Shown here: positions 591 to 50,860 of the stretch, piece by piece
Layout of the letters: every line of letters starts with the position of its first letter
Numbering within the stretch: position 1 is the stretch's first letter
From: Planctomycetota bacterium
GTDB taxonomy: Bacteria; Planctomycetota; MHYJ01; JACQXL01; JACQZI01
Length of the DNA: 64,000 bases
NCBI GenBank assembly: GCA_016207825.1
Contig: JACQZI010000023.1
Location: 133,169-197,168 of the forward strand
Direction: 5' to 3'
Position numbers and translations under genes: made by a program
Notes under the pieces: model-generated
The model's input: the letters and a program-made list of their open reading frames with translations, nothing else
What the model was told of the DNA's origin: nothing
Database searches by the model: none

Positions 591-712
591 TTTACAGCAG
601 GATTTAACTGATTAAACTGATTATCCGCCCCTCTACGAGGGACTCCCTATAATCGGGGGTCCCCGAAACAAAGTTGAGCGGGGCTAAATCCGTTTAATCC
701 CGTTGTTAAAAT
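591..712. repeat. Pair of inverted 9-bp-period microrepeat arms around a palindrome
   Basis: The left arm (591-623) has GATTTAACT and GATTAAACT in tandem. The right arm (685-712) is its approximate reverse complement (AAATCCGTT, TAATCCCGTTGTTAAAA). Between them lies a GC-rich palindromic stretch (CCGCCCCTC ... GAGCGGGG). The same arm sequence recurs, again inverted, around the GxxExxY gene at 1347-1375 and 1832-1869. No gene lies in 66-715 other than the leader elements listed. Confidence 0.55.
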
Positions 713-715
713 ACT

Positions 716-1342
716 ATGAGATTGTTACTGATTCGTCACGGAGAGATCGATTTCAACCGCCAGGCGCGTTACTGCGGCATTACCGATGCCCCATTGAATA
801 AGCACGGCATTGCCCAGGCAAGGGACCTCCGGTCATTCTTCAGCAAAGAGAAAGTGGACGCCGTTTATTGCAGTCCGCTTACAAGGACTAAACAGACCGC
901 GCGGATTCTTTTCGGGCGGCGGCGCATCACTCTCGAACCGGCCCTCAAAGAGATTAACTTCGGCAAGATGGAATGCATGTCCGTAAAAGAGGTGAAAGAA
1001 AAGCATCCGGTCTTTTACCGCACCTGGCTCACCAATCTTAACACCGCCAAGGCGCCGGGAGGAGAAAGTGTTAACCAATGCCGAAAGCGCGTCTGGAAAT
1101 TCATCAATTCGCTTATCAGGAACAGGAAAAATGCCCATAAAACCATCGCGCTTGTCATGCACGGCGGCCCGATTAAAATCTGGATAAGCGATATCATGAA
1201 ATGCGGGAAAGACGGATTCTGGATGTTCCATCCGGAGCCGGCTTCGGTTACTACCGTGGAATATGATAAGGGCAGATTCTGCCTTTTAGGGAGGAACTTT
1301 TATTATGCGAAAAACTATCCGGGCTTCGGCTGGAGGCCGTGA
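716..1342 (+). CDS. cobC: Histidine phosphatase, probable alpha-ribazole phosphatase CobC
   Basis: The 208-residue protein opens with MRLLLIRHGE, the RHG phosphohistidine motif of the histidine phosphatase superfamily (catalytic His8). A second conserved histidine lies in VMHGG (His149) and the SPLTRTKQTA segment lies near residue 60. In B12 biosynthesis CobC removes the 5'-phosphate from alpha-ribazole phosphate or from adenosylcobalamin phosphate. The sequence alone only says phosphatase of this superfamily. The role is assigned because it is the first gene after the B12 riboswitch and is followed by cobU, cobT and cobS. The start follows a microrepeat arm without an obvious strong Shine-Dalgarno sequence. 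Confidence 0.8.
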   Translation: MRLLLIRHGEIDFNRQARYCGITDAPLNKHGIAQARDLRSFFSKEKVDAVYCSPLTRTKQTARILFGRRRITLEPALKEINFGKMECMSVKEVKEKHPVFYRTWLTNLNTAKAPGGESVNQCRKRVWKFINSLIRNRKNAHKTIALVMHGGPIKIWISDIMKCGKDGFWMFHPEPASVTTVEYDKGRFCLLGRNFYYAKNYPGFGWRP

Positions 1343-1346
1343 TATA

Positions 1347-1869
1347 TTAAACAACAGGATTAAACTGATAAAACGGAATTGACCAATCTGTTTAATCATA
1401 TCTAATAATAGAAGGATTTTATGCAACACAAAGCGAAAGAGGGTCTTATTTATGAAGAGTTAACACACAAAATCATTGGCGCGGCTATGGAAGTCCACCG
1501 TGAACTCGGACCGGGATTTATCGAGAAAACATACGAAAACGCCCTGATTATAGAATTGAAAGAGCGAGGAATCCCCGCGCAAACACAGAAGAAAATAACG
1601 GTGCACTATAAAAACCATCTTGTCGGTGAGCATCTTATTGATATTCTGGTGGACGAGAAAGTAATCCTGGAACTGAAAGCGGTTGAAGAACCGGGCAAAG
1701 CGCATGAAGCCCAATTAATATCATATTTGAAAGCGGCTAATATTAAAATAGGATTGCTTATAAACTTTTCAAAGGAGTCGCTGGATTGGAAACGGATTAT
1801 GCTGAAGGATAATCTTTCCGTAAAGCATTAATTAAATCAGCTTAATCAGTTAAATCCAGTTGTTAAAAT
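1347..1869. mobile_element. Inverted microrepeat arms enclosing the GxxExxY gene (putative cassette)
   Basis: The left arm (1347-1375, AACAACAGGATTAAACTGAT) and the right arm (1832-1869, AATCAGTTAAATCCAGTTG) are approximate reverse complements, matching at about 20 of 24 aligned positions. Within the right arm the units TTAAATCAG, CTTAATCAG and TTAAATCCA show a 9-bp period. They bracket only the GxxExxY gene, which is foreign to the B12 pathway. Reading this as an inserted unit is inference; there is no transposase. Confidence 0.4.
1421..1831 (+). CDS. GxxExxY family protein (PD-(D/E)XK nuclease-like)
   Basis: A 136-residue protein with the family signature GPGFIEKTYENAL near residues 30-42 and a C-terminal IDILVDEKVILELKAV...AQLISYLKAANIKIGLLINF. 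The LVDE...ELKA pattern is the PD-(D/E)XK-type core annotated as PDDEXK_3. These small proteins are common as scattered orphans in planctomycetes, cyanobacteria and Bacteroidetes, and their function is not established. It sits on the coding strand inside the B12 cluster between cobC and cobU, bracketed by inverted microrepeat arms. It is probably an insertion that the operon tolerates, not a B12 gene. AAGGATTTT precedes the ATG as ribosome-binding site. Confidence 0.85.
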   Translation: MQHKAKEGLIYEELTHKIIGAAMEVHRELGPGFIEKTYENALIIELKERGIPAQTQKKITVHYKNHLVGEHLIDILVDEKVILELKAVEEPGKAHEAQLISYLKAANIKIGLLINFSKESLDWKRIMLKDNLSVKH

Positions 1870-1870
1870 T

Positions 1871-2413: not shown

Positions 2414-3485
2414 TACGGCCATAAGCAAAATAGGCGGATTGGATAATGCGGCAATGGCGCGCGCCCGGAAGCGGCTTGATAATTTAACAAAACCGCAAGG
2501 GAGCCTGGGCAGGCTGGAAGAACTCGCCAAACAAATCACTGGAATTACCGGGAAAGAAAACCCGCCGCTTAAAGACAAAGTTATCGTCACCATGGCCGGC
2601 GACCACGGCATAACCGAGGAAAAAGTGAGCGCTTACCCTAAAGAAGTAACGCCCCAGATGGTTTATAATTTCCTCTCCGGCGGCGCGGCAATCAATGTCC
2701 TGGCAAGGCAGGCCGGCGCAAGGGTGGTTGTCGTGGATATGGGGGTTGCTACGAAAATACAAGCTCAACAGTTCAATAGTTCAATGGTTCAAGGGTTAAG
2801 ATTTAAGGATTGTAAAATTGGATTAGGAACAAAGAACTTTGCCAAAGGCGCGGCAATGACCAAAGAAGAAGCGATTCTGTCTATAGAAAAAGGAATCGCT
2901 GTCTTTGAAGAAGAATTCCGCAAAGGGCTTGATATCTTGGGGACAGGTGATATGGGCATTGGGAACACCACCCCGAGCGCCGCGATTATTTCGGTCATCT
3001 CCGGCAAGCCGGTTGATAAGATAGCCGGACGCGGCACAGGACTTAACGATACCGGGCTTTTACATAAAATCGCGGTTATTAAAAAAGGGATAAAGATTAA
3101 CAAGCCCAATCCGCGCGATGCGATTGATGTCCTGGCGAAAGTCGGCGGATTTGAAATCGGCGGGCTTACCGGCGTAATATTGGCCGGGGCGGCGCATCGG
3201 GTTCCGGTTGTTATAGACGGATTTATTTCCACCGCCGCAGCGATGCTTGCGGTTAAATTAGCGCCAAAGTCCAAAGATTTCCTCATCTCCAGCCATTGCT
3301 CGGCGGAAAACGGGCATAAATGCGCACTTGAATACATGGGAATGAGGCCGTTGCTGGATTTAAACATGCGGCTGGGTGAAGGCACGGGCGCGGCGCTGGC
3401 GATGAGCCTGGCCGAAAGCGCTATCAGGATTATGACGGAAATGGCGACATTTGATAGCGCAGGGGTGGCAAAGAAAAACAAGTAG
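2400..3485 (+). CDS. cobT: Nicotinate-nucleotide:dimethylbenzimidazole phosphoribosyltransferase
   Basis: The 361-residue protein matches CobT throughout: KPQGSLGRLEELA near residue 31, AGDHGITEEKVSAYP near 67, GDMGIGNTTP near 182, and the catalytic glutamate in LGEGTGAA (Glu327). It transfers ribose phosphate from nicotinate mononucleotide to the lower-ligand base, making alpha-ribazole phosphate. Residues about 122-134 (QAQQFNSSMVQGL) are encoded by an 8-bp-period microrepeat (2765-2800) and look like an in-frame insertion in a surface stretch. Whether this costs activity cannot be told. It overlaps cobU and is followed by cobS. Confidence 0.95.
   Translation: MSLLDTAISKIGGLDNAAMARARKRLDNLTKPQGSLGRLEELAKQITGITGKENPPLKDKVIVTMAGDHGITEEKVSAYPKEVTPQMVYNFLSGGAAINVLARQAGARVVVVDMGVATKIQAQQFNSSMVQGLRFKDCKIGLGTKNFAKGAAMTKEEAILSIEKGIAVFEEEFRKGLDILGTGDMGIGNTTPSAAIISVISGKPVDKIAGRGTGLNDTGLLHKIAVIKKGIKINKPNPRDAIDVLAKVGGFEIGGLTGVILAGAAHRVPVVIDGFISTAAAMLAVKLAPKSKDFLISSHCSAENGHKCALEYMGMRPLLDLNMRLGEGTGAALAMSLAESAIRIMTEMATFDSAGVAKKNK
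2765..2800. repeat. In-frame 8-bp-period microrepeat inside cobT
   Basis: Units CAGTTCAA, TAGTTCAA, TGGTTCAA and GGGTTAAG follow each other. The reading frame of cobT stays open across them. This is the same type of array as the intergenic one at 7041-7111. Confidence 0.6.
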
Positions 3486-3551
3486 CGCGCAGTGAGTAGT
3501 GAGTAGAGAGGGATAATTCCTCGCTGCTCGTTGCTCGCTACCGGCTACTGG
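3486..3551. repeat. Inverted 7-bp-period microrepeat element between cobT and cobS
   Basis: The left arm reads GTGAGTA, GTGAGTA, GAGAG. The right arm reads GCTGCTC, GTTGCTC, GCTACCG, GCTACTG. The right arm is roughly the reverse complement of the left, around a GGATAATT centre. It fills almost the whole cobT-cobS gap. Confidence 0.6.
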
Positions 3552-3560
3552 ATATAAGAT

Positions 3561-4316
3561 ATGAAATCGTTGCTAATTGCTATACAATTTCTTACCAGAT
3601 TACCGATTCGCATCAAAGAAGTTAAGCCGGAAGACCACGCGCGGTCGATGATGTGGTTCCCTTTGGCTGGAATCTTTATCGGACTGGTTCTGGCATTAAT
3701 CGCTTATGAATCATTCCTGTATAATCTGCCGGGCTCCATTACGGCGGCTTTGATTATCCTGGCAATGGTTATCATTACCGGCGGACTGCATCTGGACGGA
3801 TTAAGCGATACCTGCGACGGATTCTACGCCGGCAAAGACCGGGAAGATATTTTGCGGATTATGCGCGACCCTCATACCGGCGCCATGGGGATTATCGGAA
3901 TCGTCACGGTGCTTTTGCTGAAATACGCTGTCTTAGCAGAACTCGTATCTTCGCTTCCGTTCCGCCCGCTATACATCTCTCTGGCAATTGCGCCCATGAT
4001 AAGCCGGTGGGGAATGGTTATGGCATCAAGCATCTCTCCCGCGGCGCGCGAGGACGGAAAACTCCTGCCTTTTATACAACACCTGCGCGTCAAGCACTGG
4101 CTTATCGCGACCATGCTTACATATATTATCGCTATTGGGCTATTGGGAAACCACGGCTTCGTGCTTTGCATGATCGGATTAGGCGCTGTGGTTATCGGCG
4201 TCATTTATTTCCGGCAGAGAATCGGCGGCGTTACCGGCGATACACTGGGCGCGTTAAATGAAGTTATCGAGTTAATCGTCTTGTTCAGTATTTATATGAT
4301 GTATAGAATATGCTAA
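3561..4316 (+). CDS. cobS: Adenosylcobinamide-GDP ribazoletransferase (cobalamin synthase)
   Basis: A polytopic membrane protein of 251 residues with the CobS signature GGLHLDGLSDTCDGFYAG near residues 74-91 and MRDPHTGAMGIIG near 103-115. These residues bind metal and the GDP-cobinamide substrate. CobS joins adenosyl-GDP-cobinamide with alpha-ribazole (or its phosphate) in the cytoplasmic membrane to form adenosylcobalamin (phosphate). The length is normal for the family. The stop overlaps the start of the btuF-like gene by a few bases, so salvage and import genes are cotranscribed. Confidence 0.94.
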   Translation: MKSLLIAIQFLTRLPIRIKEVKPEDHARSMMWFPLAGIFIGLVLALIAYESFLYNLPGSITAALIILAMVIITGGLHLDGLSDTCDGFYAGKDREDILRIMRDPHTGAMGIIGIVTVLLLKYAVLAELVSSLPFRPLYISLAIAPMISRWGMVMASSISPAAREDGKLLPFIQHLRVKHWLIATMLTYIIAIGLLGNHGFVLCMIGLGAVVIGVIYFRQRIGGVTGDTLGALNEVIELIVLFSIYMMYRIC

Positions 4317-5251
4317 AAGTTTCAAGTTTCAAGTTAGAAGTTGCAAGGACCTTCGTGGTTTTCTGTCTTTACTTGCTCACTGTTAATTGTTCATTGTTAA
4401 TTTGCGTGTCTTGCTCCAGAGAAAAACCCGCTCTGCCGGCAAGCGGACCGACTATCACGGATGCCACGGGAACAGCGGTTCCCTTAAACCCGCCGCCAAC
4501 GCGGATAATATCGCTGGCGCCATCCATCACCCAAAATATCTATACGCTCGGGGCTGGAGATAAATTAATCGGGGTAACCACCTACTGCAAACTGCCCCAA
4601 GGCGAAAACAAGGCGCGAATCGGGAACGTCTGGGAGCAGGATATAGAAAAAGTCCTCCAGCTAAAACCGGATTTAATACTGGCCACCAAGGAAATAAACC
4701 AATCCGAACCCGTCAATAAGCTGAGAAGTTACGGATTGCGCGTATTTGCCTTCCCGGAGGTGAAGACGTGGGAAGACATCAAGAACGAATTCGCCTTAAC
4801 AGGAAAGTTTTTAGGCAAGGAAGAAATAGTCCAACAATTATTAAAGGAATATGAACTAAAACTAAAAAGTATTGAAATACAAAAACTCAGCACTTCTTCT
4901 GAGCAACCCACTGTTTTTATCCAACAATCGGAACAGTTTCATACAGTAGGTAAAGACACTTTTATAGATGCGGCTATTAATTATGCGGGGACATTGAATG
5001 TTGCTTGGAATACCATAGGACGCTGGCCAATGCTTAGCATAGAGGAAATAATAAAACAAGACCCTGATTTAATCCTAATCTCAACCATGGGCGAAGCGAC
5101 CGCGCAGGCGCTGGAAAACTGGAAAAGGTATCCGTCGCTCAAAGCCGTTAAGAATAATAAAATAATCGTGATAGATGCGGATATCTGCTGCCAGGCGACA
5201 CCAGATAGCTTTATTAAACTGGTAGAGATAATTTCGGAAAATATAAAATGA
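4310..5251 (+). CDS. btuF: Periplasmic corrinoid-binding protein, BtuF-like
   Basis: A 313-residue class III substrate-binding protein. An N-terminal hydrophobic export segment (about residues 14-34) is followed by a possible, atypical lipidation cysteine (Cys35). TRIISLAPSITQNIYTLGAGDKLIGVTTYC (near 64-93 in shorter blocks) is the usual BtuF/FepB opening, and EDIEKV-type helices and a DPDLILIS motif follow. It should capture cobalamin or cobinamide for the BtuCD importer encoded next. The first codons and the end of the signal segment are written in 7-bp-period microrepeats (4317-4412), so the native start may have been replaced. The next gene begins 4 bases before the stop. Confidence 0.85.
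   Translation: MLKVSSFKLEVARTFVVFCLYLLTVNCSLLICVSCSREKPALPASGPTITDATGTAVPLNPPPTRIISLAPSITQNIYTLGAGDKLIGVTTYCKLPQGENKARIGNVWEQDIEKVLQLKPDLILATKEINQSEPVNKLRSYGLRVFAFPEVKTWEDIKNEFALTGKFLGKEEIVQQLLKEYELKLKSIEIQKLSTSSEQPTVFIQQSEQFHTVGKDTFIDAAINYAGTLNVAWNTIGRWPMLSIEEIIKQDPDLILISTMGEATAQALENWKRYPSLKAVKNNKIIVIDADICCQATPDSFIKLVEIISENIK
4317..4412. repeat. 7-bp-period microrepeats forming the N-terminus of btuF
   Basis: AAGTTTC, AAGTTTC, AAGTTAG, AAGTTGC occupy 4317-4345. ACTGTTA-, ATTGTTC- and ATTGTTA-type units occupy about 4378-4407, with a CCTTCGTGG word in between. The whole stretch is translated as the export signal of the BtuF-like protein. Confidence 0.55.
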
Positions 5252-6249: not shown

Positions 6250-7038
6250 ATGTTAGAAGTAAATAATTTAACTTCCGGTTATTCCGGCGCGGCCAAAGTG
6301 GTCGAAGATATCACTTTCCGGGTATTGCCGGGCGAGGTGGTCGGGATAATCGGCCCGAACGGAGCCGGGAAAACCACCCTTTTTAGAGCGCTCACCCGCT
6401 TATTAAAACCGTGGGCGGGTGAAATCCGCTATCGCGGAAAGAACATCCAGGAAATCCCGATAAAAGAGCTGGCGCAGTTGATAGCGGTCCTGCCGCAGAA
6501 TCTGCCTTTGGCATTTTCCTTTACGGTAAAGGATTTCGTGCTGATGGGACGCCTGCCCCACATGGGCATGTGGCAGAACTTACGGGAAAGAGACCGCGCA
6601 ATCGCCACGGATATGATGCGCCTGACGGAAATAGAAACTCTCGCCGAACGATATGTCACAGAATTATCAGGCGGTGAATTACAGCGCGTTATGCTCGCCC
6701 AGGCCTTGACGCAGGAACCGGAATTATTGTTGCTGGATGAGCCGACTTCACACCTGGATATCGGGCACCAGGTGGAAATAATGGATATGATTACGCATCT
6801 TAAGGCAGAAAAGAATCTGACTATACTAATGGTTTTGCATGACTTGAACCTGGCCGCCTTGTATTGCGACAGGTTAATACTTTTGAATAACGGCAAAATA
6901 CATTCAAGCGGGACGCCGAGCGAGGTATTAACCTATCAGAATATAGAAGCTGTTTACAAAACGGTCGTGGTGGTAAAGGAAAACCCGATTACCCAACGGC
7001 CGCATGTGCTTTTGATACCGAAGGAGCGGTGGAAATAA
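6250..7038 (+). CDS. btuD: Corrinoid ABC importer ATPase, BtuD-like
   Basis: 262 residues with all ABC ATPase motifs: Walker A GPNGAGKTT (about 35-43), Q-loop VLPQNLP (about 79-85), signature LSGGELQRV (about 139-147), Walker B LLLLDEPTSHLD (about 158-169) and H-loop VLHD (about 195). It energises import through the BtuC-like permease. Iron-siderophore transporters share this architecture, so the corrinoid assignment rests on the riboswitch and on neighbours cobUTS and the BtuB-like receptor. An inverted microrepeat element separates it from the next gene. Confidence 0.9.
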   Translation: MLEVNNLTSGYSGAAKVVEDITFRVLPGEVVGIIGPNGAGKTTLFRALTRLLKPWAGEIRYRGKNIQEIPIKELAQLIAVLPQNLPLAFSFTVKDFVLMGRLPHMGMWQNLRERDRAIATDMMRLTEIETLAERYVTELSGGELQRVMLAQALTQEPELLLLDEPTSHLDIGHQVEIMDMITHLKAEKNLTILMVLHDLNLAALYCDRLILLNNGKIHSSGTPSEVLTYQNIEAVYKTVVVVKENPITQRPHVLLIPKERWK

Positions 7039-7040
7039 CC

Positions 7041-7111
7041 GTTTAAAGGTTTAAGGGTTCAAGAGTTTAAAGGATTATCTTTTGAACCTTTAAACTATTA
7101 AACTTTTGAAC
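7041..7111. repeat. Inverted 8-bp-period microrepeat element between btuD and the DUF71 gene
   Basis: Left arm units GTTTAAAG, GTTTAAGG, GTTCAAGA, GTTTAAAG. Right arm units CTTTTGAA, CCTTTAAA, CTATTAAA, CTTTTGAA. The arms face each other around GATTAT and run right up to the start codon of the next gene, leaving no room for a normal Shine-Dalgarno sequence. Confidence 0.65.
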
Positions 7112-7112
7112 T

Positions 7113-7817
7113 ATGTATATATCATCGTGGAGCGGCGGAAAAGACAGTTGCTTGGCTTGTTATAAAGCAATCCAGTCCGGTTATAGGATTTCGCATCTGG
7201 TAAACTTTATCTCGGCTGAGTTTAAACGGGTCAGCTTCCACGGCACGCCGGCAAAGTTGGTCCAAAGGCAAGCGGATGCTATCGGAATCCCTTTATTGCA
7301 GAAAGAGGCCCATCCCGAAGACTACGAGCCATCTTTTAAGGAAGCGGTTAACCAATTGCGAATGGCGAATGGCGAATGGGGAATTAAAAATTCCGAATCC
7401 CGAATCCCCAATTCCGCACTTGAGGGCATGGTTTTCGGTGATATTTATCTGCAGGAACACCGGCAATGGACAACGCGCGTCTGCAACGAACTCGGCATAC
7501 AAGCAATAGAGATGCTCTGGGGCATGCGTACGGAAGATATACTGGATGAATTCATCGGCCTTGGATTCAAATCGCTTATCATTTCCGCCAAGGCATCGCT
7601 TATTGGCAAGGAATGGGTCGGTAAACTAATCAGCCATGAATTCATAAACTATCTTAAAAATGAAAAGCCCCATGTGGACATCTGCGGGGAAAACGGGGAA
7701 TACCACACGTTCGTATTTGACGGGCCGTTATTCAAGAAACCTGTAAAGGTTGCAAAACAGGAGGTGATAGAAAAAGAAACGCCTTATGGCAAATGGTATT
7801 TTTTGGATATGGAATAA
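7113..7817 (+). CDS. DUF71/COG2102 PP-loop ATPase, predicted B12-salvage subfamily
   Basis: A 234-residue PP-loop protein with SSWSGGKDSC at residues 4-13 (adenylation loop), GTPAKLVQRQADAIGIPL near 44-61, and a C-terminal CGENGEYHTFVFDGP motif typical of DUF71 (diphthine-ammonia ligase-like) proteins. Eukaryal and archaeal members amidate diphthine. A bacterial subgroup clusters with B12 genes and has been predicted to act in B12 salvage, possibly on cobinamide amides. The position between btuD and the BtuB-like receptor supports that subgroup. Residues about 82-102 are encoded by an in-frame inverted microrepeat (7357-7418), an insertion the family does not normally have. Confidence 0.8.
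   Translation: MYISSWSGGKDSCLACYKAIQSGYRISHLVNFISAEFKRVSFHGTPAKLVQRQADAIGIPLLQKEAHPEDYEPSFKEAVNQLRMANGEWGIKNSESRIPNSALEGMVFGDIYLQEHRQWTTRVCNELGIQAIEMLWGMRTEDILDEFIGLGFKSLIISAKASLIGKEWVGKLISHEFINYLKNEKPHVDICGENGEYHTFVFDGPLFKKPVKVAKQEVIEKETPYGKWYFLDME
7357..7418. repeat. In-frame inverted 7-bp-period microrepeat inside the DUF71 gene
   Basis: GCGAATG, GCGAATG, GCGAATG and GGGAATT form the left arm; CCGAATC, CCGAATC, CCCAATT and CCGC the right arm, around AAAA. The arms are reverse-complementary. The frame remains open and adds about 20 residues (RMANGEWGIKNSESRIPNS). Confidence 0.7.
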
Positions 7818-7918: not shown

Positions 7919-9979
7919 ATGAAACGTTTTATAATAATAGGCTTTTCTCTGTGTGCTCTGTGTTTCTGCGGTTTGCCAACCAAGGCTGAAGAAGAGATGG
8001 AAGAAATCGTGGTTACCGCCACGCGCGAGGAAAAACCGCTGAAGGACGCGCCCGGCGCAATCACTCTTATCAAGCAATCGGAAATAGAAGGCAAGAATAC
8101 GCTTGATATTACCAATGCGCTTGCCTATAGCCCGGGCGCTAAGATACTGCGCTACGGCTCGCTCGGCTCGAACGCCACTATTCACCTGAGAGGCTTGTAT
8201 TCACAGCATACGCTGGTCATGGTTGACGACCGAATCATCAACGCGCCATCAAGCGGGGGAGCGGATTTATCGTTTCTCTCCGCGGATAATGTCGAACGGA
8301 TTGAAATCATGCGCGGGGCGGCTTCTTCCCTCTACGGAGGCAACGCCGTTGCCGGGGTGATCAATATCATTACCAAAAACCCATCTGGCCAGCCAAAAAG
8401 CTATCTCAACACATTATACGGCTCTTATGACACGTCCATTACACAGTTTTCGGACAGCCGTTCTTTCGGCGGTTTCGGATACATCTTTAATGGAAACTAT
8501 AAATCATCGCAGGGGCACCGCGACAACAGCGCCTATTACTCAAACGACAGCCATCTCAAAATGAATTATAAATGGGCGGATGAAATGAAGCTGTCGCTTG
8601 ATATCGGCGCAAACGAAGGCAAAAACGATTTGCCCGGCACGCGCCCGGCAAAAGACCCGGCATTAAGAACCGCCTCCCAAAAAACATTCGGCGACAGCAA
8701 GATTTCCACCAGCCGCGATTCAGGGGAAAGCGCGAAATCATACCTAAACCTCGTCTTTAACATAGGGCATTTCAAGGTTAAACAATATGGCAATTACTGG
8801 GATGATATTAATCACCAGGAATGGATTTCCGTGGGCGCGCATTACACCCGGAACAGCAATTACCGCAGCGCTACTTACGGAACGGAAATAATCGCCGACT
8901 TGGATTATTCCTATATTAACCACTGGACCGCCGGCTTGAGCGCAGGCGGGGCGCGTTACAAGATACATGATGACGAGGTTAATTTACAAACCGTAACCCT
9001 TACCGAAAGCAAATGGAACGCACGCAGGGGCAATTACGCCGCATTCGCCCAGAACGAAATAAAACTGGATAACATCCTTTTTACCATAGGCGGACGCTGG
9101 GATAACCCGACTGATTTCGCGACTCAGCTTACGGGCAAAGGCAATATCCTCTGGCACATAAACGAGACCACATCCATGCGCGTTTCCGGAGGCAGTTCTT
9201 ACCGAGCGCCTTCCCTTAACGACCTTAACTGGCCAAAAGACGCATTTTCCGAAGGGAATCCGGAATTGCAGCCGGAAAAAGGCAAGACCTACGAAGCCGG
9301 AATAAAACATGAACTTAAACCAGTCGCATTGGTTACAGAACTGACTATCTTCAGGCAGAATCTTAAAAACATGATCGCTTGGGCACCGACCGGCTCTATG
9401 GGACCCTGGGGTAACAGATGGCATCCTTCAAACCTTAATACCGCGTGGATTACCGGGCTGGAATTGGGGGTAACCTACCGGCAGATAAAAAATATTACGT
9501 TCAACCTGAATTATACTTTTCTGGACGCATATCAGCGAAACAAAGAAGCGCGCCAGTATATCTATGACCCGTTTACCTGGGCGACCCTGGCTGTCATCAG
9601 CAAATCAGAAACCCGCCAACTGGCTTATACGCCTGTCCATAAAACTGATATCGGAATAAACTTTGCCAATCTCGGCGGGGCGGAAAACTTGTTTCTGGAT
9701 ATGGATGTGCAATATATCGCATCCACCTACCAATACTACGGAAATAGCGACCTTGGTTTTCCCGTGGAAACAGCCTGGACAGAAACCAAAAAGCAGGGCG
9801 GTTACTGGCTGGTGAATATGAAGATAAGGAAAAACACCGCGGGCAATTTCGGGTTCTTTATTGGAATGGAAAATATTACCAATAAGGAATATGTTATCCA
9901 GCTGGGCAGTTCGATTAATGACCGCGGCTATCCCATGCCGGGGAGAACGGTATTGGCAGGTGCCGAGTTCAGGTTTTAA
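7919..9979 (+). CDS. btuB: TonB-dependent outer-membrane receptor, BtuB-like
   Basis: A 686-residue protein with a signal peptide (about 1-22), a TonB box-like EEIVVTAT (about 27-34), a plug domain (DAPGAITLI ... LRGLYSQHTLVMVDDRIIN ... IEIMRGAASSLYGGNAVAGVINIIT, about 45-145) and a long beta barrel ending in the typical terminal phenylalanine (AGAEFRF). Such receptors import corrinoids across the outer membrane using TonB-ExbBD, which are not encoded here. The assignment to B12 comes from the riboswitch cluster. The signal peptide coding sequence contains an 8-bp-period microrepeat (CTCTGTGT/GCTCTGTG/TTTCTGCG). A good ribosome site (AAAGGGA) precedes the ATG. Confidence 0.88.
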   Translation: MKRFIIIGFSLCALCFCGLPTKAEEEMEEIVVTATREEKPLKDAPGAITLIKQSEIEGKNTLDITNALAYSPGAKILRYGSLGSNATIHLRGLYSQHTLVMVDDRIINAPSSGGADLSFLSADNVERIEIMRGAASSLYGGNAVAGVINIITKNPSGQPKSYLNTLYGSYDTSITQFSDSRSFGGFGYIFNGNYKSSQGHRDNSAYYSNDSHLKMNYKWADEMKLSLDIGANEGKNDLPGTRPAKDPALRTASQKTFGDSKISTSRDSGESAKSYLNLVFNIGHFKVKQYGNYWDDINHQEWISVGAHYTRNSNYRSATYGTEIIADLDYSYINHWTAGLSAGGARYKIHDDEVNLQTVTLTESKWNARRGNYAAFAQNEIKLDNILFTIGGRWDNPTDFATQLTGKGNILWHINETTSMRVSGGSSYRAPSLNDLNWPKDAFSEGNPELQPEKGKTYEAGIKHELKPVALVTELTIFRQNLKNMIAWAPTGSMGPWGNRWHPSNLNTAWITGLELGVTYRQIKNITFNLNYTFLDAYQRNKEARQYIYDPFTWATLAVISKSETRQLAYTPVHKTDIGINFANLGGAENLFLDMDVQYIASTYQYYGNSDLGFPVETAWTETKKQGGYWLVNMKIRKNTAGNFGFFIGMENITNKEYVIQLGSSINDRGYPMPGRTVLAGAEFRF

Positions 9980-12742: not shown

Positions 12743-13456
12743 ATGAACGAGCTAATTGTTCCGGAATATTTGACGAATAATCTGGATTGGATAAGGCAGA
12801 AAATCGAGAAATCGGCTCGTAAGGTAAACAGGGATCCTTCGGAAATTAAACTGATAACAGTTACTAAATACGCGGACATTGAAACCATCGGGTATTTACC
12901 AGCACTCGGACTCTTCGATTTAGGGGAAAACAAAGTTCAGGAACTGGTAAAAAAAGCAGAGGCTTTACCGGATTCGGTAACCTGGCATATGATTGGTCAT
13001 ATGCAGACTAATAAAATCAAGAGGGGGTTGCCTTTTTTTAATTACCTGCACTCGCTGGACAGCTTGCATCTGGCAGAGGCGCTGGAAAACGAAGCTAACA
13101 GGATCAATAAGCAACTTAATGTTTTTATCCAGCTTAATATAAGCGGGGAAGAATCGAAATACGGGATAAAACCGGAAGAGCTCTTTAATTTTTACGGGAA
13201 AGCAAAGGATTATTCCCATCTGAAAATTATCGGCTTGATGACCATTGCACCAGAAGCAACTAACCCTGAAGAATCCCGCCCCGTATTCCGAAAACTCCGG
13301 GAATACCTCGACGAATTGAAAACTAAAATGACTGGTCAGGCAAGAAATGATTTCTGCCACCTGTCAATGGGCATGACCCAGGATTATGATGTCGCGATAG
13401 AAGAAGGGGCTACGTTCATCAGAATCGGGACAGCTCTTTTTAAAGAAGCGGCCTAA
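12743..13456 (+). CDS. yggS: YggS/PLPBP family pyridoxal-phosphate homeostasis protein
   Basis: About 237 residues of the PROSC/YggS single-domain alanine racemase fold. It has the PLP-lysine motif LITVTKYADIE (lysine in TK), FDLGENKVQELVKKA, WHMIGHMQTNKIK and the C-terminal LSMGMTQDYDVAIEEGATFIRIGTALF, which binds the phosphate. These proteins keep free PLP in balance and are not racemases. The start at 12743 is chosen because a promoter occupies 12695-12723. The two residues after LSMGM read TQDY where SxDY is usual, a mild change. It probably heads the transcription unit through the kinase gene. Confidence 0.92.
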   Translation: MNELIVPEYLTNNLDWIRQKIEKSARKVNRDPSEIKLITVTKYADIETIGYLPALGLFDLGENKVQELVKKAEALPDSVTWHMIGHMQTNKIKRGLPFFNYLHSLDSLHLAEALENEANRINKQLNVFIQLNISGEESKYGIKPEELFNFYGKAKDYSHLKIIGLMTIAPEATNPEESRPVFRKLREYLDELKTKMTGQARNDFCHLSMGMTQDYDVAIEEGATFIRIGTALFKEAA

Positions 13457-13480
13457 ATAACTTTTATATCTTGTAATATT

Positions 13481-23901: not shown

Positions 23902-24726
23902 TTAGAAAGATACGTTTTTATAGAACAGTTCTTCTGCCGGACCGGTGATATAAAGCGTGCCATCGGGCTTGGATTCAACCAGGAGCTTCCCGCCTTTAAG
24001 ATGGACACTAACTTTACGGGTAAGCCGCTTCTTAAAGATTCCGGCGGCGACAGACGCGGCGGCGCCGGTCCCGCAGGCAGTTGTCTCACCCACCCCGCGC
24101 TCCCAGGTGCGCTGTTTAATGTTGGTTTTGTTTACTATGCGGACGAATTCGACATTGGTGCGCTTGGGAAATATCCGGTGCTTTTCGATAAGCGGCCCAT
24201 AGCGCTCGACCGGGAATTTAACGGTGTCCGGAACGAAGATAACGCAGTGCGGGTTTCCCATGGAGACTTTTACCGCTTTGAACTTCTTATCTAAAATCTC
24301 CAATCTGCAATCTGCAATACTTTCCGGCTTGCCCATCTCCACGCGGATGTTTTTCACCTTGTTATCCTTAATATCCAAATCAAGCGTTTTAATACCGGCA
24401 AGGGTTTCCACTTTGATAGTTTTCTTCCAGGTCAAACCATGTTCGTAGGCGTATTTGCCCAGACACCTGATGCCGTTCCCGCACATTTCTGCTTCTGAAC
24501 CATCCGCGTTGAAGATACGCATCCTGAAATCAGCAGGGGCTAACGAGTGAGCCGGTGAATTAGCGAATTTATGAAGCGGCAGTATTATGATTATTCCGTC
24601 AGCTCCTATGCCGCTTTTCCTATCGCAAAGCTTCTTTATAATAGCAGGCGACAGGTTGAGCCGTGCTTTTGTGCCGTCGAATACGATATACTCGTTGCCG
24701 AGCCCGTGCATTAATGATATCTTCAT
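23902..24726 (-). CDS. dapF: Diaminopimelate epimerase
   Basis: 274 residues. It interconverts LL- and meso-diaminopimelate for lysine and peptidoglycan. Both catalytic cysteines are present, in AEMCGNGIRCLG (about residue 79) and ETTACGTGAAAS (about 216), with the opening MHGLGNEYIVFDGT. Two surface stretches are written in 7-bp-period microrepeats and appear to be in-frame insertions: FANSPAHSLAPA (about 53-64; 24535-24570) and IADCRLEIL (about 136-144; 24297-24320). Transcription starts from a promoter that overlaps the divergent nadA promoter. Confidence 0.93.
   Translation of the reverse strand: MKISLMHGLGNEYIVFDGTKARLNLSPAIIKKLCDRKSGIGADGIIIILPLHKFANSPAHSLAPADFRMRIFNADGSEAEMCGNGIRCLGKYAYEHGLTWKKTIKVETLAGIKTLDLDIKDNKVKNIRVEMGKPESIADCRLEILDKKFKAVKVSMGNPHCVIFVPDTVKFPVERYGPLIEKHRIFPKRTNVEFVRIVNKTNIKQRTWERGVGETTACGTGAAASVAAGIFKKRLTRKVSVHLKGGKLLVESKPDGTLYITGPAEELFYKNVSF
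24297..24320. repeat. In-frame 7-bp-period microrepeat inside dapF (first site)
   Basis: CCAATCT, GCAATCT and GCAATAC in tandem, translated on the minus strand as part of IADCRLEIL. Confidence 0.5.
24535..24570. repeat. In-frame 7-bp-period microrepeat inside dapF (second site)
   Basis: On the minus strand the units ATTCGCT, AATTCAC, CGGCTCA and CTCGTTA follow each other at 7-bp spacing, translated as NSPAHSL. The frame is kept. Confidence 0.5.
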
Positions 24727-35800: not shown

Positions 35801-36595
35801 TTAAACCTGCGTTGCCTTAATCCTGAGCTTGAAAATCCCGTCTTCCAGCATGAAATCCACGCATGAATCTCCGCCCGGAATAAAAGACATCAAACCCAAG
35901 GCCGGGTCAATCATCCCCTGCACCAAATTATTGGTGACAGTGTTCTGAGCGCTGATAGACCCCGTGCTGTATTCAGCATTGGATATCAGCATCCCGGCTT
36001 GAATCAGGCGGCCCATCAAGGCAGACCTGAAAGATTGGATGAACTCTTCCCGGCAAATCCGGTAAGGGGCACCGGCAATCAATTGGTCGCCCTGACGCAG
36101 TTTACCCGCTACCGTAGGCTCACCGGTCATCCAGAAACAGGCAATGGCCGCGGCGCCGATTCCGTGGATACGGTCACCGGTGATGCGCAAGGCTTTCTTG
36201 CGCCACGATTCGGCAACCCGTTCCTTGGAGTCATTCACCGCATCCACAAACCTTTTCGCCTTAACCCCGCCGATTTCTTCAAAGACGCGGGTAACCCTTG
36301 TTACCCAGTTCTGGTAAGCGTCCTGGATATTCTTGGCAAAGGTCTTGACTACCGAAGCCTTGACCCGACCCCTTTTAGTCCGATAGGTATCGGACATAAA
36401 GGAAGGCCACTGCTCGGCGGCGGGAGTAGAAAGCTTTTCCTGGTAGCTGGCTTCATCGGGAATTGCCCTTTGAAGGCGGTCTATCAAGAGTTCGGCATTC
36501 TCACCCAGATTTTTCGCCCACTTTTCCGCGATATCTCCGGCAGGCGCGTACGAAGCAGGTATTTCCAGCTTTACATCAAACAGTATGTTTGGCAT
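35801..36595 (-). CDS. Possible separate gene: unknown C-terminal protein with internal start
   Basis: The ATG at 36595, preceded by GGAGGATAG, would yield a 264-residue soluble protein beginning MPNILFDVKLEIP. It contains a helical region (EKWAKNLGENAELLIDRLQR, KNIQDAYQNWVTRVTRVFEE) and a beta-rich end (GGDSCVDFMLEDGIFKLRIK). I recognise no family. It shares its frame and stop with the longer protease frame. It may be made alone, as a fusion, or both. Confidence 0.5.
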   Translation of the reverse strand: MPNILFDVKLEIPASYAPAGDIAEKWAKNLGENAELLIDRLQRAIPDEASYQEKLSTPAAEQWPSFMSDTYRTKRGRVKASVVKTFAKNIQDAYQNWVTRVTRVFEEIGGVKAKRFVDAVNDSKERVAESWRKKALRITGDRIHGIGAAAIACFWMTGEPTVAGKLRQGDQLIAGAPYRICREEFIQSFRSALMGRLIQAGMLISNAEYSTGSISAQNTVTNNLVQGMIDPALGLMSFIPGGDSCVDFMLEDGIFKLRIKATQV

Positions 36596-37681
36596 AAAAC
36601 TATCCTCCGTTTTCCTCGTTAGTTCTGCTCGCCGATACATCTCCTTTCCGTGCATGCTAACGGAAAGACACCTCGATGCGTCTGATTGACGAACAGAAGA
36701 ACTGAGGAACGGAAAAACGTAAGAACTATTTAATGTCCTTTCGTCCTTCGGTTCTTTAGTTCGCTTGCGCGGTCCTTCGGTTCTTTGGTCGAGGAAATCG
36801 TATATTTCCGAGATGGGAACAATTCCCGCCATGGTGGTAATCAATTGGTCTCCATATAATCTTACCCAAACGGCTATTCCAATTAACTCATATTGGTAGG
36901 CATTCCCGTCATTAGACGGGACGGCGCTTCGCTTCGCATATACCGGTCCCCCGGAGTTACCGGGTAAAACCGGAGCTGTTATTTCCCAAGAAAAGCCACC
37001 GATTACACTGATAATACCGGATGAAGGTCTTGGAGATAAACCTAATGAACATCCAACAACATAAACCGGAGCGAATAAGTAAGGAACATAATCCTTCGGA
37101 GCCAGATTTGCAGTTTTAACCGCAAAGTCGCAAAGAACGCTAAGAAGGGCTAAATCCTTAACCGTATCTGTAATAACAACCGTCGCATCTATCTCGGTAT
37201 CCTTTGCGTCTTTGCGGTAAGAAAAGAACGTTACGCTTACTTTAGCATAATTTCCTACTACATGTCCTGCTGTCAGAATCAGTGTATATCCGTGTTCATC
37301 GGTGGTTGCAATGACTACCCCGCTTCCGCATCCGGTCAGTGTTTCAATCATAACCGTTGGACTTAGCATCTCGTCATACTCACGCTGGTAAGGATTATTA
37401 GCCTTGTCCATAGGCCGAATGATGATAACGCCGGAAGGAAGTTCGGCAGGCTTAGTTGACCATGCCGTCAATCCGATTAAGAGAATGCCCGCAATCAGGA
37501 TAATCAATAATCTGATAACCTTTCCCTTGCCCTGAACCTGACCCCGACCAAAGGTATCGGGGGAATGGTTCATGGGTTTCTTGCTCATATCTTCAAGTTT
37601 CTTTTCCACCTTACGCTTGATGATTGTCAGCAGGACTTCCACGGCCACCTTTAATATTCCTTTAAATATTTTCTTAAACAT
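35801..37681 (-). CDS. Membrane-anchored trypsin-like protein fused in frame to an unknown domain
   Basis: The ATG at 37681 is chosen because GGAAGGAGGG precedes it and it overlaps the stop of the upstream gene by 8 bases. A membrane segment (about 55-75) is followed by a trypsin-like domain with His in TAGHVVG, Asp in KDLALLS and Ser in PGNSGGPVY. After about residue 300 comes a repeat-derived linker, then from MPNILFDVKLEIP (ATG at 36595) an unrelated 264-residue region that has its own GGAGG ribosome site. It probably represents two original genes joined by an in-frame repeat. Microrepeats also lie inside the protease domain (37119-37148, 37201-37222). Function unknown. Confidence 0.7.
   Translation of the reverse strand: MFKKIFKGILKVAVEVLLTIIKRKVEKKLEDMSKKPMNHSPDTFGRGQVQGKGKVIRLLIILIAGILLIGLTAWSTKPAELPSGVIIIRPMDKANNPYQREYDEMLSPTVMIETLTGCGSGVVIATTDEHGYTLILTAGHVVGNYAKVSVTFFSYRKDAKDTEIDATVVITDTVKDLALLSVLCDFAVKTANLAPKDYVPYLFAPVYVVGCSLGLSPRPSSGIISVIGGFSWEITAPVLPGNSGGPVYAKRSAVPSNDGNAYQYELIGIAVWVRLYGDQLITTMAGIVPISEIYDFLDQRTEGPRKRTKEPKDERTLNSSYVFPFLSSSVRQSDASRCLSVSMHGKEMYRRAELTRKTEDSFMPNILFDVKLEIPASYAPAGDIAEKWAKNLGENAELLIDRLQRAIPDEASYQEKLSTPAAEQWPSFMSDTYRTKRGRVKASVVKTFAKNIQDAYQNWVTRVTRVFEEIGGVKAKRFVDAVNDSKERVAESWRKKALRITGDRIHGIGAAAIACFWMTGEPTVAGKLRQGDQLIAGAPYRICREEFIQSFRSALMGRLIQAGMLISNAEYSTGSISAQNTVTNNLVQGMIDPALGLMSFIPGGDSCVDFMLEDGIFKLRIKATQV
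36609..36790. repeat. Inverted microrepeat arms between the protease and the downstream domain
   Basis: CGTTTTCCTCGTTAGTTCTG (about 36608-36627) is approximately complementary to GAACAGAAGAACTGAGGAAC (about 36691-36710). A second run with GTCCTTCGGTTCTTTAGTTCG and GTCCTTCGGTTCTTTGGTC words (each under 22 bases) occupies 36743-36790. All of it stays open in the frame of the trypsin-like gene. Confidence 0.6.
37119..37222. repeat. Two in-frame 8-bp-period microrepeats inside the trypsin-like domain
   Basis: ACCGCAAA, GTCGCAAA, GAACGCTA lie at about 37119-37141, and CCTTTGCG, TCTTTGCG, GTAAGAAA at 37201-37222. The two are in opposite orientation and flank the segment encoding KDLALLSVL (with the catalytic Asp). 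The frame is kept. Confidence 0.55.
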
Positions 37682-38114
37682 CTTCGCACCCTCCTTCCTG
37701 CCAGCTTTCGATATAATCAACCCAATCTTCATAGAATTCCTGTTTGAGTTCAGATTCTTCCTGCTCTTCCTGAAGGCTTACCCCGAAGGCGATATCCTGT
37801 CCCGCCAGCTTGCCCCGCTCCACTTCGCTCCGCGGGACGATAGGGAGTCCCTGACCATAGGTCAGGGCGCCCTTTTCCAATAACCGCCGGTCGGCATATG
37901 AAAGGAGCGATTCAAACCCCATCCTTAAAGCAGGCAGTTCCAACCGCTTTCTTTCCGGGTAATACATGAGGTAGCAATACCGGCAATAACCCAAGCCCCT
38001 TGCCGCCCACGAAATAAGCGCCTTGCCTTTAAGCACCGGCTTGTTAACGGCTTTAGGCAGGGGTTTGCCGCATTCTTTGCATCGTATCGCTCCGCAATTT
38101 CTTAAATCTTTCAT
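37674..38114 (-). CDS. Zinc-ribbon-like hypothetical protein
   Basis: 146 residues. CKECG (about 12-16) and CRYCYLMYYPERKRLELP (about 44-61) give a CxxC...CxxC zinc-ribbon pattern; the rest is acidic and helical (EEQEESELKQEFYEDWVDYI). GAAAGGAGAATG precedes the start. It is translationally coupled to the trypsin-like gene, whose ATG lies inside its stop region. No named family is recognised. It is divergent from the sigma factor gene, with a 300-bp gap that carries a microrepeat and a small palindrome. Confidence 0.65.
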   Translation of the reverse strand: MKDLRNCGAIRCKECGKPLPKAVNKPVLKGKALISWAARGLGYCRYCYLMYYPERKRLELPALRMGFESLLSYADRRLLEKGALTYGQGLPIVPRSEVERGKLAGQDIAFGVSLQEEQEESELKQEFYEDWVDYIESWQEGGCEDV

Positions 38115-41317: not shown

Positions 41318-41535
41318 CTATCACGGACTAAAGCGTGACGCACACCGTTCCAGGAAACTCTTTATTTTTCGAAGCGTAGCGGAGTCCCGACCGACAGCCA
41401 GCAGGTCGTCCCGCGTGATCAAAACGTGACACACACCGCGACTGGAATACCCCGATTCCCCTGCGATTCAAATCCTAATTCCCTTGAATCCCTTTTTCTT
41501 TAATGGGGTATACCGGCTTGCACCATGGAGCATAG

Positions 41536-41788
41536 TAGTTATTAAGATGGGGTCGGGTAGCTTTTAGAATGGGGTCTGGTAGCTCTTACCTATACGTATT
41601 ATAGCTTTTAGGATGGAGTCAGGTAGCCTTTACCTATATGTATTATAGCTTTTAGGGGTGAGTAATATAGCCTTTACCCGTATGTATTATAGCCTTTAGG
41701 ATGGGGTCAAGTAGCTTTTACCTATATGTATTATAGCTTTTAGAGTGGGGTCAGGTAGCTTTTATAATGGAGTCTAGTAGCCTTTAGG
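41536..41788. repeat. 22-bp minisatellite with two alternating unit types
   Basis: Eleven full units and one partial start every 22 bp at 41536, 41558, 41580 and so on to 41778. All begin TAGCYTTTA or a close variant. Type A continues GGATGGGGTCAGG; type B continues CCTATATGTATTA. Order: A A B A B A' B A B A A. There are no spacers, so it is not a CRISPR. The 22-bp step is close to two helical turns. Confidence 0.85.
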
Positions 41789-49559: not shown

Positions 49560-49592
49560 AAGTTACAAGTAAAAATGAGCAATGAACAATTA
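49560..49592. repeat. 7-bp-period microrepeat, left arm around the four-helix-bundle gene
   Basis: AGTTACAAGT, then ATGAGCA, ATGAACA, ATTAAGA at 7-bp spacing. The arm on the other side of the gene (49978-50005) has the reverse-complementary words. Confidence 0.55.
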
Positions 49593-49607
49593 AGAAATAC
49601 AAATAAA

Positions 49608-49982
49608 TTATTTGGCGTTCTTTTTCAGGTTCTGCTTAGAAGTCTTAACACTTTTCCCGAATATTTTCTTAATTTCCAAGGATTCCTGTATTAACTTATC
49701 AATATCCTCCGATTTGTTTAATTCAGAATCCTTTAATAATCTTAACCAAAGATTAGTTTCTTTTGCTTCCTTAAAAGAAATACTTAATTTATAGGTAAAA
49801 TCCTCTTTACTGAACGCAACAGTGGCTTCCTCATAATTCGCCGCGATAGAAGTTGCCGAGCGCAATAATTGGCGGCCAATTTCCTGCGCCGCCATCTCAC
49901 GCGGGAGCTTTCTGACCAATTCAATTACACTCAAAGCAAACTTATAAGTTCTATCCGAAAGGTCGTTTTCAATACTGCTCAT
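49608..49982 (-). CDS. Four-helix-bundle protein (23S rRNA-intervening-sequence family)
   Basis: 124 residues, all helical, with the family pattern YKFALSVIELVRKLPREMAA, QLLRSATSIAANYEEA and FSKEDFTYKLSISFKEAKET. The family was named from genes inside 23S rRNA intervening sequences and includes the Avd accessory protein of diversity-generating retroelements. No reverse transcriptase is present, so this is an orphan member of unknown role, possibly nucleic-acid binding. Its ATG overlaps the rsmE stop (ATGA). It is bracketed by inverted microrepeat arms, like the GxxExxY gene. Confidence 0.88.
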   Translation of the reverse strand: MSSIENDLSDRTYKFALSVIELVRKLPREMAAQEIGRQLLRSATSIAANYEEATVAFSKEDFTYKLSISFKEAKETNLWLRLLKDSELNKSEDIDKLIQESLEIKKIFGKSVKTSKQNLKKNAK

Positions 49983-50005
49983 TGTTCATTGCTAATTGCT
50001 AATTG
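49978..50005. repeat. 7-bp-period microrepeat, right arm around the four-helix-bundle gene
   Basis: CTCATTG, TTCATTG, CTAATTG, CTAATTG in tandem. It encodes the last residues of RsmE (AISNEQ) and the start codon of the four-helix-bundle gene. Confidence 0.6.
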
Positions 50006-50770
50006 ATATTTAAGCATCGCCAGCATCGCCACGGCGGCGGTTTCCACCCTCAATATTCCGCCCACCGGCATCTGGACCGCCTTAAACCCGGCGGCCTTGG
50101 CCTTTTCCACTTCATCAGGCGAGAAATCGCCTTCCGGCCCGATGAGGTATAGTATCTTTACACACCCCCTACCCCCTCCCCGATTAGGTCGGGACTCCGC
50201 TGCCGCTACGCTTATTAGAGGGGAATATGTTATCAAATCATCTCCTTCGGGATAAGCTAAGAGTTTTATATTGTAGTCGTTTATTGTACCAAGTAATTTC
50301 GCAAATGGCAATATTTCCGCGATTTCCATAACGGTGGATTGGGATGATTGCCTGGCGGCCTCCACGGCTATCTTTTTCCAACGCTTAACCTTGTTTTCGC
50401 CGACGTCCCTGACGACACTGCGCCTGGTTTCCATGGGGATAAGCTTATTAAGCCCTAGTTCAGCGCACTTTTCCACCAGCCAGTCCATCCGGTTGCCTTT
50501 GGGAATAGCGACAGCAAGAGAGATATTAGTTGTTGGTTGTTGGTTGTTAGTTGTTGGCTCTTGCGGAATAATTTTTAGCTGTGTATTCTTGCCAAGCACA
50601 CTTATTTGCGCATGATGAATATTGCCGGATTTATCGAAGAGTTCCACCTTATCGCCGATTTTCAGGCGGAGAACCCGGCTAAGATGCAGGGACTGTTCTT
50701 CGTCAAGGGAGACCTCCGCTTCCGCGCCGGTAACGGGCGTATCTATGTAGAATCTATGAAGCCGTTTCAT
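49979..50770 (-). CDS. rsmE: 16S rRNA m3U1498 methyltransferase
   Basis: 263 residues of the SPOUT-class RsmE family: an N-terminal PUA-like part (LHLSRVLRLKIGDKVELFD), AIPKGNRMDWLVEKCAELGL, ETRRSV, WKKIAVEAARQSSQS and the SAM-binding knot LIGPEGDFSPDEVEKA near 205-220. It methylates U1498 in the ribosomal decoding region. Two in-frame additions are repeat-derived: TTNNQQPTTN (about residue 71-80, from 50527-50557) and about 24 residues (PLISVAAAESRPNRGGGRG core) from the palindromic repeat 50159-50224. It is longer than typical because of these. Confidence 0.9.
   Translation of the reverse strand: MKRLHRFYIDTPVTGAEAEVSLDEEQSLHLSRVLRLKIGDKVELFDKSGNIHHAQISVLGKNTQLKIIPQEPTTNNQQPTTNISLAVAIPKGNRMDWLVEKCAELGLNKLIPMETRRSVVRDVGENKVKRWKKIAVEAARQSSQSTVMEIAEILPFAKLLGTINDYNIKLLAYPEGDDLITYSPLISVAAAESRPNRGGGRGCVKILYLIGPEGDFSPDEVEKAKAAGFKAVQMPVGGILRVETAAVAMLAMLKYQLAISNEQ
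50159..50224. repeat. Palindromic repeat inserted in frame in rsmE
   Basis: CACACCCCCTACCCCCTCCC at the left and TATTAGAGGGGAA at the right enclose CGATTAGGTCGGGACTCCGC and a GCTACGC word. It is a longer relative of the hairpin after dapF (23876-23901). It is read through in the rsmE frame just before the SAM-binding motif. Confidence 0.6.
50527..50557. repeat. In-frame 7-bp-period microrepeat inside rsmE
   Basis: TTAGTTG, TTGGTTG, TTGGTTG, TTAGTTG, TTGG in tandem, translated on the minus strand as a T/N/Q-rich loop. Confidence 0.65.
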
Positions 50771-50779
50771 ACAACTAAT

Positions 50780-50860
50780 AAGTTACAATGAACAAGTATC
50801 AATGAGCAAGGAATTTCATCCTTAATTGTTAATTGCTAATTGTTCATTGTCACTTGTAAC
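50780..50860. repeat. Inverted 7-bp-period microrepeat element upstream of rsmE
   Basis: The left arm (50780-50810) carries GTTACAATGAACAAG and CAATGAGCAAGG. The right arm (50818-50860) carries TTAATTG, TTAATTG, CTAATTG, TTCATTG and CACTTGTAAC. The arms are roughly reverse-complementary around GAATTTCAT. Confidence 0.6.

Follow-up and report, generated by a model that had tools for sequence, protein, structure and literature searches.

Degenerate microrepeats with periods of 7, 8 and 9 bp are scattered at gene junctions and inside genes over a stretch of 64,000 nucleotides (hereafter the window) from a Planctomycetota bacterium (assembly GCA_016207825.1, contig JACQZI010000023.1). We consider it probable, taking the explanation as a whole, that these arrays are the terminal inverted arms of small mobile cassettes, and that the hairpins with a tiny centre seen at many sites are gene-less forms consisting of arms only. 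A complete cassette carries a single small gene from one of two families between two facing, complementary arms. Cassettes of this anatomy are found widely among bacterial phyla, they are present in one genome and absent from another at precise sites, and the repeated word of their arms is inherited together with the encoded protein.

Arrays were called with a lag-match scan in which at least 16 of 21 positions had to be equal at lag p, and the scan of the window was controlled with order-1 Markov shuffles. The window holds 9 arrays of period 7 and 4 of period 8 (0.2 and 0.1, respectively, in the shuffles), and none of period 9 at this threshold. Genome-wide counts, which cover 1.63 Mb (56%) of the source genome, gave 67 arrays of period 7 against 3.0 expected, 50 of period 8 against 3.0 and 30 of period 9 against 2.0. 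Neighbouring periods that are not multiples of a codon were at or near background (4 versus 3.2 for period 10, 6 versus 2.0 for period 11 and 3 versus 1.2 for period 13), and the excesses at the multiples 14, 16 and 21 were mostly echoes of the same microrepeat arrays. A preliminary description of the window had noted at least a dozen short arrays of these three periods. For periods 7 and 8 this is borne out by an approximately 20-fold excess over shuffles in the window and in the 1.63 Mb, while period 9 is the weakest and least clean of the three because some of its arrays are codon repeats in coding DNA. Degenerate tandem heptamers, mostly intergenic, of the kind that defines the short tandemly repeated repetitive (STRR) sequences of cyanobacteria were confirmed, as were versions of period 8 and 9, and many of the arrays lie within open reading frames (ORFs).

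The arrays also tend to face a partner. In a test that the preliminary description had set, and which the data pass, 101 arrays of period 7 or 8 were examined for a partner within 120 bp, with swapped partners as controls, and a complementary arm was found above the 95th percentile of the controls for 20 of them (5.1 expected) and above the 99th percentile for 10 (1.0 expected). All four tiny-centre hairpins named in the preliminary description are real (3482-3548, 7035-7114, 7348-7420 and 50781-50857). That catalogue had overlooked the arms that face each other over a longer range, about 400 bp apart, and enclose a gene (1347-1861 and 49560-50004), as well as an empty site at 13447-13457 and a gene-less element at 113-181; of another gene-less element, touched at 591, it had missed how far the element reaches (600-702).

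Several arrays of the source genome are complementary to another array some 400 bp away, and such pairs enclose a gene of about 120-135 amino acids belonging either to the four helix bundle/S23 family (23S_rRNA_IVP; PF05635, TIGR02436) or to the GxxExxY family (PF13366 PDDEXK_3, TIGR04256), giving a complete cassette of about 0.45-0.55 kb. Both kinds are represented in the window. The GxxExxY cassette occupies 1347-1861 on the plus strand, with a 9-mer left arm at about 1347-1400, the gene (TIGR04256; PF13366 PDDEXK_3) at 1421-1831 on the same strand and the right arm at about 1829-1861. The S23/four-helix-bundle cassette lies on the minus strand at 49560-50004, between radA and rsmE, with arms at 49560-49594 and 49973-50004 and the gene (TIGR02436, PF05635), also on the minus strand, at 49608-49982. 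A scan blind to gene content recovered 11 complementary array pairs 200-1500 bp apart, nine of them with gaps of 370-530 bp, and eight of these nine enclose a four-helix/S23 or GxxExxY gene, whereas pairs in the same direction at 200-1500 bp numbered only four, none of which encloses a gene of either family. The ninth pair (locus L056, 5566-6107) has an ORF of up to 155 amino acids between complementary 9-mer arms, possibly representing a third cassette gene family.

In the source genome 14 genes pass the cut-off of PF05635; there are about 8 PF13366 genes as well, of which two are broken. The flanks of all these genes were fetched and read, and nearly all of the genes were found between facing complementary arms, each cassette gene with an arm word of its own (GTTACAA, CTAAGAGA, GTTAATTA, GTTCATTA, ACGAATAAC and CACAGAGAA among them). 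Cassettes sit at gene junctions, often right after a stop codon and right before the next start, and also within genes, in a few loops that tolerate them and in which they are read in frame as inserted peptides. The copies that we read adjoin or separate protein genes rather than 23S rRNA genes, and none was seen in rRNA.

Comparison of orthologous junctions, which the preliminary description had proposed, revealed precise sites at which one genome carries an element that another lacks. The sister used here is a genome of the same genus (G001), whose DNA is about 78-86% identical to that of the window where the two align. It lacks the GxxExxY cassette at 1347-1861, with about 50 bp separating the flanking genes, and the 11 bp at 13447-13457 of the window are the empty counterpart of a complete four-helix cassette (about 535 bp, GTTACAGAA arms) that lies exactly there in the sister. 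The S23 cassette at 49560-50004 has as its counterpart in the sister a 9-mer element that carries no gene. Elsewhere in the source genome, the gene-less hairpins or arrays at L036 10189-10254 and L004 11388-11575 correspond in the sister to a full four-helix cassette (L140) and a full GxxExxY cassette (L171), respectively. Finished cyanobacterial plasmids provide further cases. On a plasmid of Calothrix brevissima a cassette separates two genes whose spacer is only 3 bp long in Tolypothrix, Aulosira, Nostoc carneum and Anabaena cylindrica, and plasmids of Nostoc edaphicum and Nostoc sp. C052 carry one at a junction that measures 50-52 bp in four other plasmids and holds different armed inserts in two more. 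The 3' arms of the C052 and N. edaphicum cassettes differ by exactly one 7-bp unit, a difference that directly shows slippage. At another junction of the source genome (L025, about 4250-5213) a HEAT-repeat-like lipoprotein gene lies between CACAAAGAC and CTTTGTG arms, and the sister has a GxxExxY cassette there (L165), which suggests that the arms can carry cargo other than S23 and GxxExxY genes.

Armed S23-type genes occur in at least a dozen phyla. A search of 84,980 species genomes with an alignment of three four-helix proteins retrieved 80 loci, in Bacteroidota, Verrucomicrobiota, Acidobacteriota, Nitrospirota, desulfobacterial and deltaproteobacterial lineages, Planctomycetota (including the complete genome of Candidatus Brocadia pituitae), Chloroflexota, Omnitrophota, Gammaproteobacteria and others. 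When loci from the source genome and from related genomes were pooled, and with a looser threshold of 15/21, 108 of 118 four-helix loci had an arm on at least one side, the period of the 5' arm being 7 in 60, 8 in 17 and 9 in 11, and both arms had the same period in 68 of 71 cassettes. At the threshold of 16/21, arrays were found in 135 of 229 four-helix flanks, compared with 9 of 229 control flanks 600 bp away. The largest number of cassette copies in one genome was 15, in the relative G005. No S23 genes were found in phages. Isolate genomes and finished plasmids (loci L207, L210, L259 and L260 among them) show the same anatomy, which is therefore not an artefact of assembly.

The two arms of a cassette belong together, and both go with the gene. 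The most complementary 3' arm was the locus's own partner for 45 of 117 four-helix loci and for 12 of 33 GxxExxY loci, against 1 expected in each case. Across 108 four-helix cassettes, protein identity correlated with the trimer profile of the arms (Mantel r = 0.44, reached in 0 of 2000 permutations), whereas flanks 250-500 bp away did not track protein identity (r = -0.15). Either shared ancestry or recognition could give such a correlation between word and protein, and since both require it, the arm must travel with the gene. Most four-helix 5' arms share a GTT core (GTTNNNN), with GTT recurring at the period of the array at least three times in 42 of 89, and the GxxExxY arms have another core (ACACAGAT, CACGAA or CACAAAG-like words).

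Besides the two complete cassettes, the window contains gene-less elements and single arrays. At 113-181, direct reading identified gene-less facing arms of 8/9-mers (GCCACTGCCACAAAGGCAG ... TGCCTTCGTGGC) whose word type is that of GxxExxY cassettes, and at 600-702, upstream of a cobC-like gene, the Tandem Repeats Finder program and direct reading identified gene-less 9-mer arms (GGATTTAACTGATTAAACTG ... CTAAATCCGTTTAATCCCG) around a GC-rich palindrome. The cobalamin genes that follow hold an 8-mer array (GTTCAATA; plus strand) at 2759-2801 in a variable loop of cobT, and a gene-less 7-mer hairpin with AGTGAGT/CTCGCTG arms at 3482-3548 between cobT and cobS; two 7-mer arrays at 4308-4402, in the N-terminal part of a BtuF-like gene, have no counterpart in the sister. 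A gene-less 8-mer hairpin (GTTTAAAG) precedes a dph6-like gene (7035-7114) and an in-frame 7-mer hairpin (GCGAATG) lies inside it (7348-7420). Further arrays within genes are a 7-mer array (AATCTGC) at 24287-24322 in dapF, an 8-mer hairpin (GAAGAACN) at 36688-36790 in a trypsin-like gene and a 7-mer array (GTTGTTGG-like) at 50519-50564 in rsmE, upstream of which there is a gene-less 7-mer hairpin at 50781-50857. Microrepeat hairpins lie in the reading frame of long ORFs in the window (35801-37732, the trypsin-like gene) and at L065 14558-15357 and L077 1161-2023, and the latter two ORFs look related to the trypsin-like gene. The palindrome nested in the 9-mer element (620-684; GAGGGACTCCCTAT ... 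CGGGGG ... GAGCGGGG) has its like in two gene-less elements of the sister, and there may be a second mobile palindrome, similar to repetitive extragenic palindromic (REP) sequences, that targets gene-less hairpins. Two other features of the window are an array of 22/44-bp units (TAGCTTTTAGGATGGGGTCAGG) at 41535-41788, a family distinct from the microrepeats, and a conserved-looking leader at 280-500 upstream of the cobalamin gene cluster, which is probably a cobalamin riboswitch. Period 22 marks a separate repeat family in the genome at large (75 arrays versus 3 expected in the 1.63 Mb scan).

Wherever a site of the window could be aligned with a counterpart in the sister (2759, 3482, 7035, 7348, 50519 and 50781), the word was not retained. 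Differences at shared sites extend to the period and even to the cassette family, between sisters with flanks of about 85% identity. In the cobT loop at 2759 the 8-mer of the window is replaced in the sister by a 7-mer GTTACAA array, and two further genera of the order have 7-mer arrays with yet other words in the same loop. The 7-mer AGTGAGT at 3482 stands against an 8-mer GTTCATTA hairpin, the 8-mer at 7035 against a 9-mer GTTACAGGA hairpin, and GCGAATG at 7348 against a 7-mer AGTAGCG hairpin in the same place. In rsmE (50519) the insertion of the sister is another one, with units of GCGGAAT, and at 50781 it has a gene-less 9-mer element (CACAAAGGC/CACAGAGAA). A few sites elsewhere in the genome keep a recognizable word, for example L083 19093 and L046 10377. 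In the sister, a CCGCCTGACGGCGAGGCAGG palindrome is inserted midway in an otherwise conserved GAATGGC array (L299, about 9028-9161). The turnover could come from concerted rewriting, by hairpin-directed copying and slippage, or from repeated replacement at tolerant hot spots, and for at least some sites replacement is favoured by the swaps of cassette family at the radA-rsmE junction.

These observations lead us to propose the following mechanism. A complete cassette consists of a 5' arm, in which a degenerate unit of 7, 8 or 9 bp stands 3-6 times, then a single small gene and a 3' arm that is the reverse complement of the same word. The arms would pair as hairpins when single-stranded, as DNA or RNA. 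The four-helix-bundle protein, presumably a pentameric ring, may bind the core (GTTNNNN) that recurs every 7-9 nt in the 5' arm; its relatives in the PDB, 2gsc and 2rld, have five chains each. An analogy is offered by TRAP and other ring proteins that bind spaced triplets. The GxxExxY protein, a putative nuclease (Pfam PDDEXK_3) for which a sequence search returned no solved structure, would bind the ACACAGAT/CACNRA-like core and could cleave branched or hairpin DNA. Bound protein would then help cassettes to excise or insert and would act in trans on copies without a gene, while slippage and hairpin-directed copying would keep the two arms alike as the word drifts, and cassettes would replace one another at hot spots. 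A model driven by reverse transcriptase was set aside: no RVT_1 gene was found in the source genome (97.6% complete) or in 7 of 8 relatives, the remaining one being in the sister G001, and a route that depends on this enzyme is unlikely because the source genome has none.

Other explanations account for part of these data. Replication slippage together with template switching at quasi-palindromes could make arrays of 7-9 bp anywhere, the enclosed genes being incidental. Heptamers are the commonest repeats of 5-11 nt in many genomes, for which polymerase slippage has been suggested (PMC4679880), and the two Nostoc plasmids differ by one unit in one arm; such a process would leave no reason, however, for just two gene families inside eight of nine long-range complementary pairs, for the loss or gain of whole cassettes, gene included, between sisters, or for arm words that follow the protein across phyla, and we regard it as very unlikely to be the whole answer. 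As a common source of the arrays, the preliminary description had suggested slippage with template switching or else a mobile element borne on a hairpin. The mobile part of this proposal is supported by the gene cassettes, the polymorphic sites in sisters and plasmids and the arms that travel with the protein, and slippage adjusts copy number, as in the Nostoc plasmids. If the arms belonged to the site instead, pre-existing facing arrays would be hot spots that receive S23 and GxxExxY genes, in keeping with junctions where both sisters have arrays that differ in word and content, and with three different inserts at one Nostoc plasmid junction. Empty counterparts with spacers of 3 bp, 11 bp and about 50 bp, however, have no arrays, and the arm word correlates with the protein and not with distant flanks, which makes this reading quite unlikely.

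Hairpins might, alternatively, be kept for use at the RNA level (RNase III processing, termination or translational control) and not as mobile ends. The intervening sequence (IVS) in the 23S rRNA of Coxiella is cut by RNase III at the start of heptameric repeats beside the S23 ORF (PMC4990558), and the TAACTGA heptamers of Beggiatoaceae lie just upstream of start codons (PMC4679880). Such a use would leave the linkage to two gene families unexplained, arrays also lie in frame inside cobT, dph6, rsmE and dapF, and words, and even their presence, turn over between sisters; we hold this explanation to be unlikely. Chance, codon repeats or an assembly artefact, to which codon repeats lend some substance in the excess at period 9, are refuted for periods 7 and 8 by the roughly 20-fold excess over shuffles and by the same anatomy in finished plasmids and isolate genomes, and we give them practically no chance. 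Several points nevertheless weigh against a mobile cassette with microrepeat ends. Movement itself was not observed, the basis being comparisons of presence and absence, which by themselves are silent on gain versus loss at a site, and no target-site duplication was seen at the few clean sites read. Where a shared site has different words in the two genomes, independent insertion and not rewriting could in some cases be the cause. At the GxxExxY genes of relatives the arms are short, with 2-3 units, and in several relatives they are missing; no catalytic site is recognized in the four-helix protein, and co-inheritance of arm and gene is compatible with recognition but is not proof of it.

The cassettes have a known kind of element at their core, the S23 selfish element, and S23 elements, cyanobacterial heptamers and the trnL P6b stems discussed below are each known separately. 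S23 ORFs in the 23S rRNA IVS of Coxiella and Leptospira are regarded as selfish and have long been suspected to be mobile, and in Coxiella heptameric GACAGAT repeats precede the S23 ORF at the RNase III site (PMC4990558). The cassettes resemble these IVS in having a single four-helix-bundle/S23 ORF (PF05635, TIGR02436) and flanking inverted repeats, but they lie between or inside protein genes, number up to 15 in a genome, and have arms of 7/8/9-bp units with a word for each copy, a GxxExxY family and gene-less forms. With the STRR and TAACTGA heptamers they share degenerate heptamers at gene junctions. The latter, known from Beggiatoaceae, cyanobacteria and Bacteroidetes, have been described without a mechanism, and both kinds, unlike the cassettes, as direct repeats without gene linkage or facing arms (PMC4679880). 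TAACTGA is the complement of a GTT-core unit, and S23 genes on Nostoc and Calothrix plasmids lie between such heptamers. The preliminary description had taken the inverted-arm layout to be new for heptamer repeats, which is not the case, as the P6b stem of the Nostoc trnL intron has facing heptanucleotide repeats of two classes, TDNGATT or NNTGAGT, that replace one another (PMC4476775). The P6b stems of Nostoc and Calothrix are like the present elements in their facing heptamers and in word classes swapping at a fixed site (PMC4476775), and the hairpin at 3482-3548 uses the NNTGAGT word of one class. The P6b stem sits in a group I intron and has no S23 gene; it is presumably a gene-less relative of the cassettes.

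Complete gene-bearing copies accompanied by many gene-less hairpins mobilized in trans are familiar from REP sequences and bacterial interspersed mosaic elements (BIMEs) with their REP-associated tyrosine transposases (RAYTs), and from miniature inverted-repeat transposable elements (MITEs). The ends of REP sequences and MITEs have one conserved sequence per family, whereas the cassettes conserve period and mirror symmetry and have no RAYT-like enzyme; their gene-less and gene-bearing copies have period and word class in common, and not the words themselves. Avd of diversity-generating retroelements has a fold homologous to PF05635 (4DWL versus 2GSC; PMC10053308) and likewise forms a pentameric ring, but the cassettes come without a reverse transcriptase or template and variable repeats. 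In the open PubMed Central set, outside which most subscription papers and preprints lie, we found no paper that joins microrepeats or heptamers with S23 or GxxExxY cassettes.

More tentatively, the cassettes may represent a pan-bacterial class of mobile elements that lack a fixed terminal sequence. Conserved instead would be a rhythm of 7-9 bp, the mirror symmetry of the two ends and a core of 3-5 nt that the ring protein or nuclease of the cassette reads, while the ends are continually rewritten. The same process might then be the source of the heptamers of cyanobacteria, Beggiatoaceae, Bacteroidota and Planctomycetota, including the trnL intron P6b stems and the 23S intervening sequences, a possibility that we take seriously without holding it to be the likelier one. 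The mobile-cassette reading would provide one explanation for heptamer repeats, S23 intervening sequences, the odd peptides inserted in conserved enzymes and two very common but uncharacterized kinds of gene, four-helix-bundle and GxxExxY, and it predicts that the encoded protein recognizes its own arm words. A mobile element with a rhythm instead of a sequence as its ends would, if true, be unusual among known transposons.

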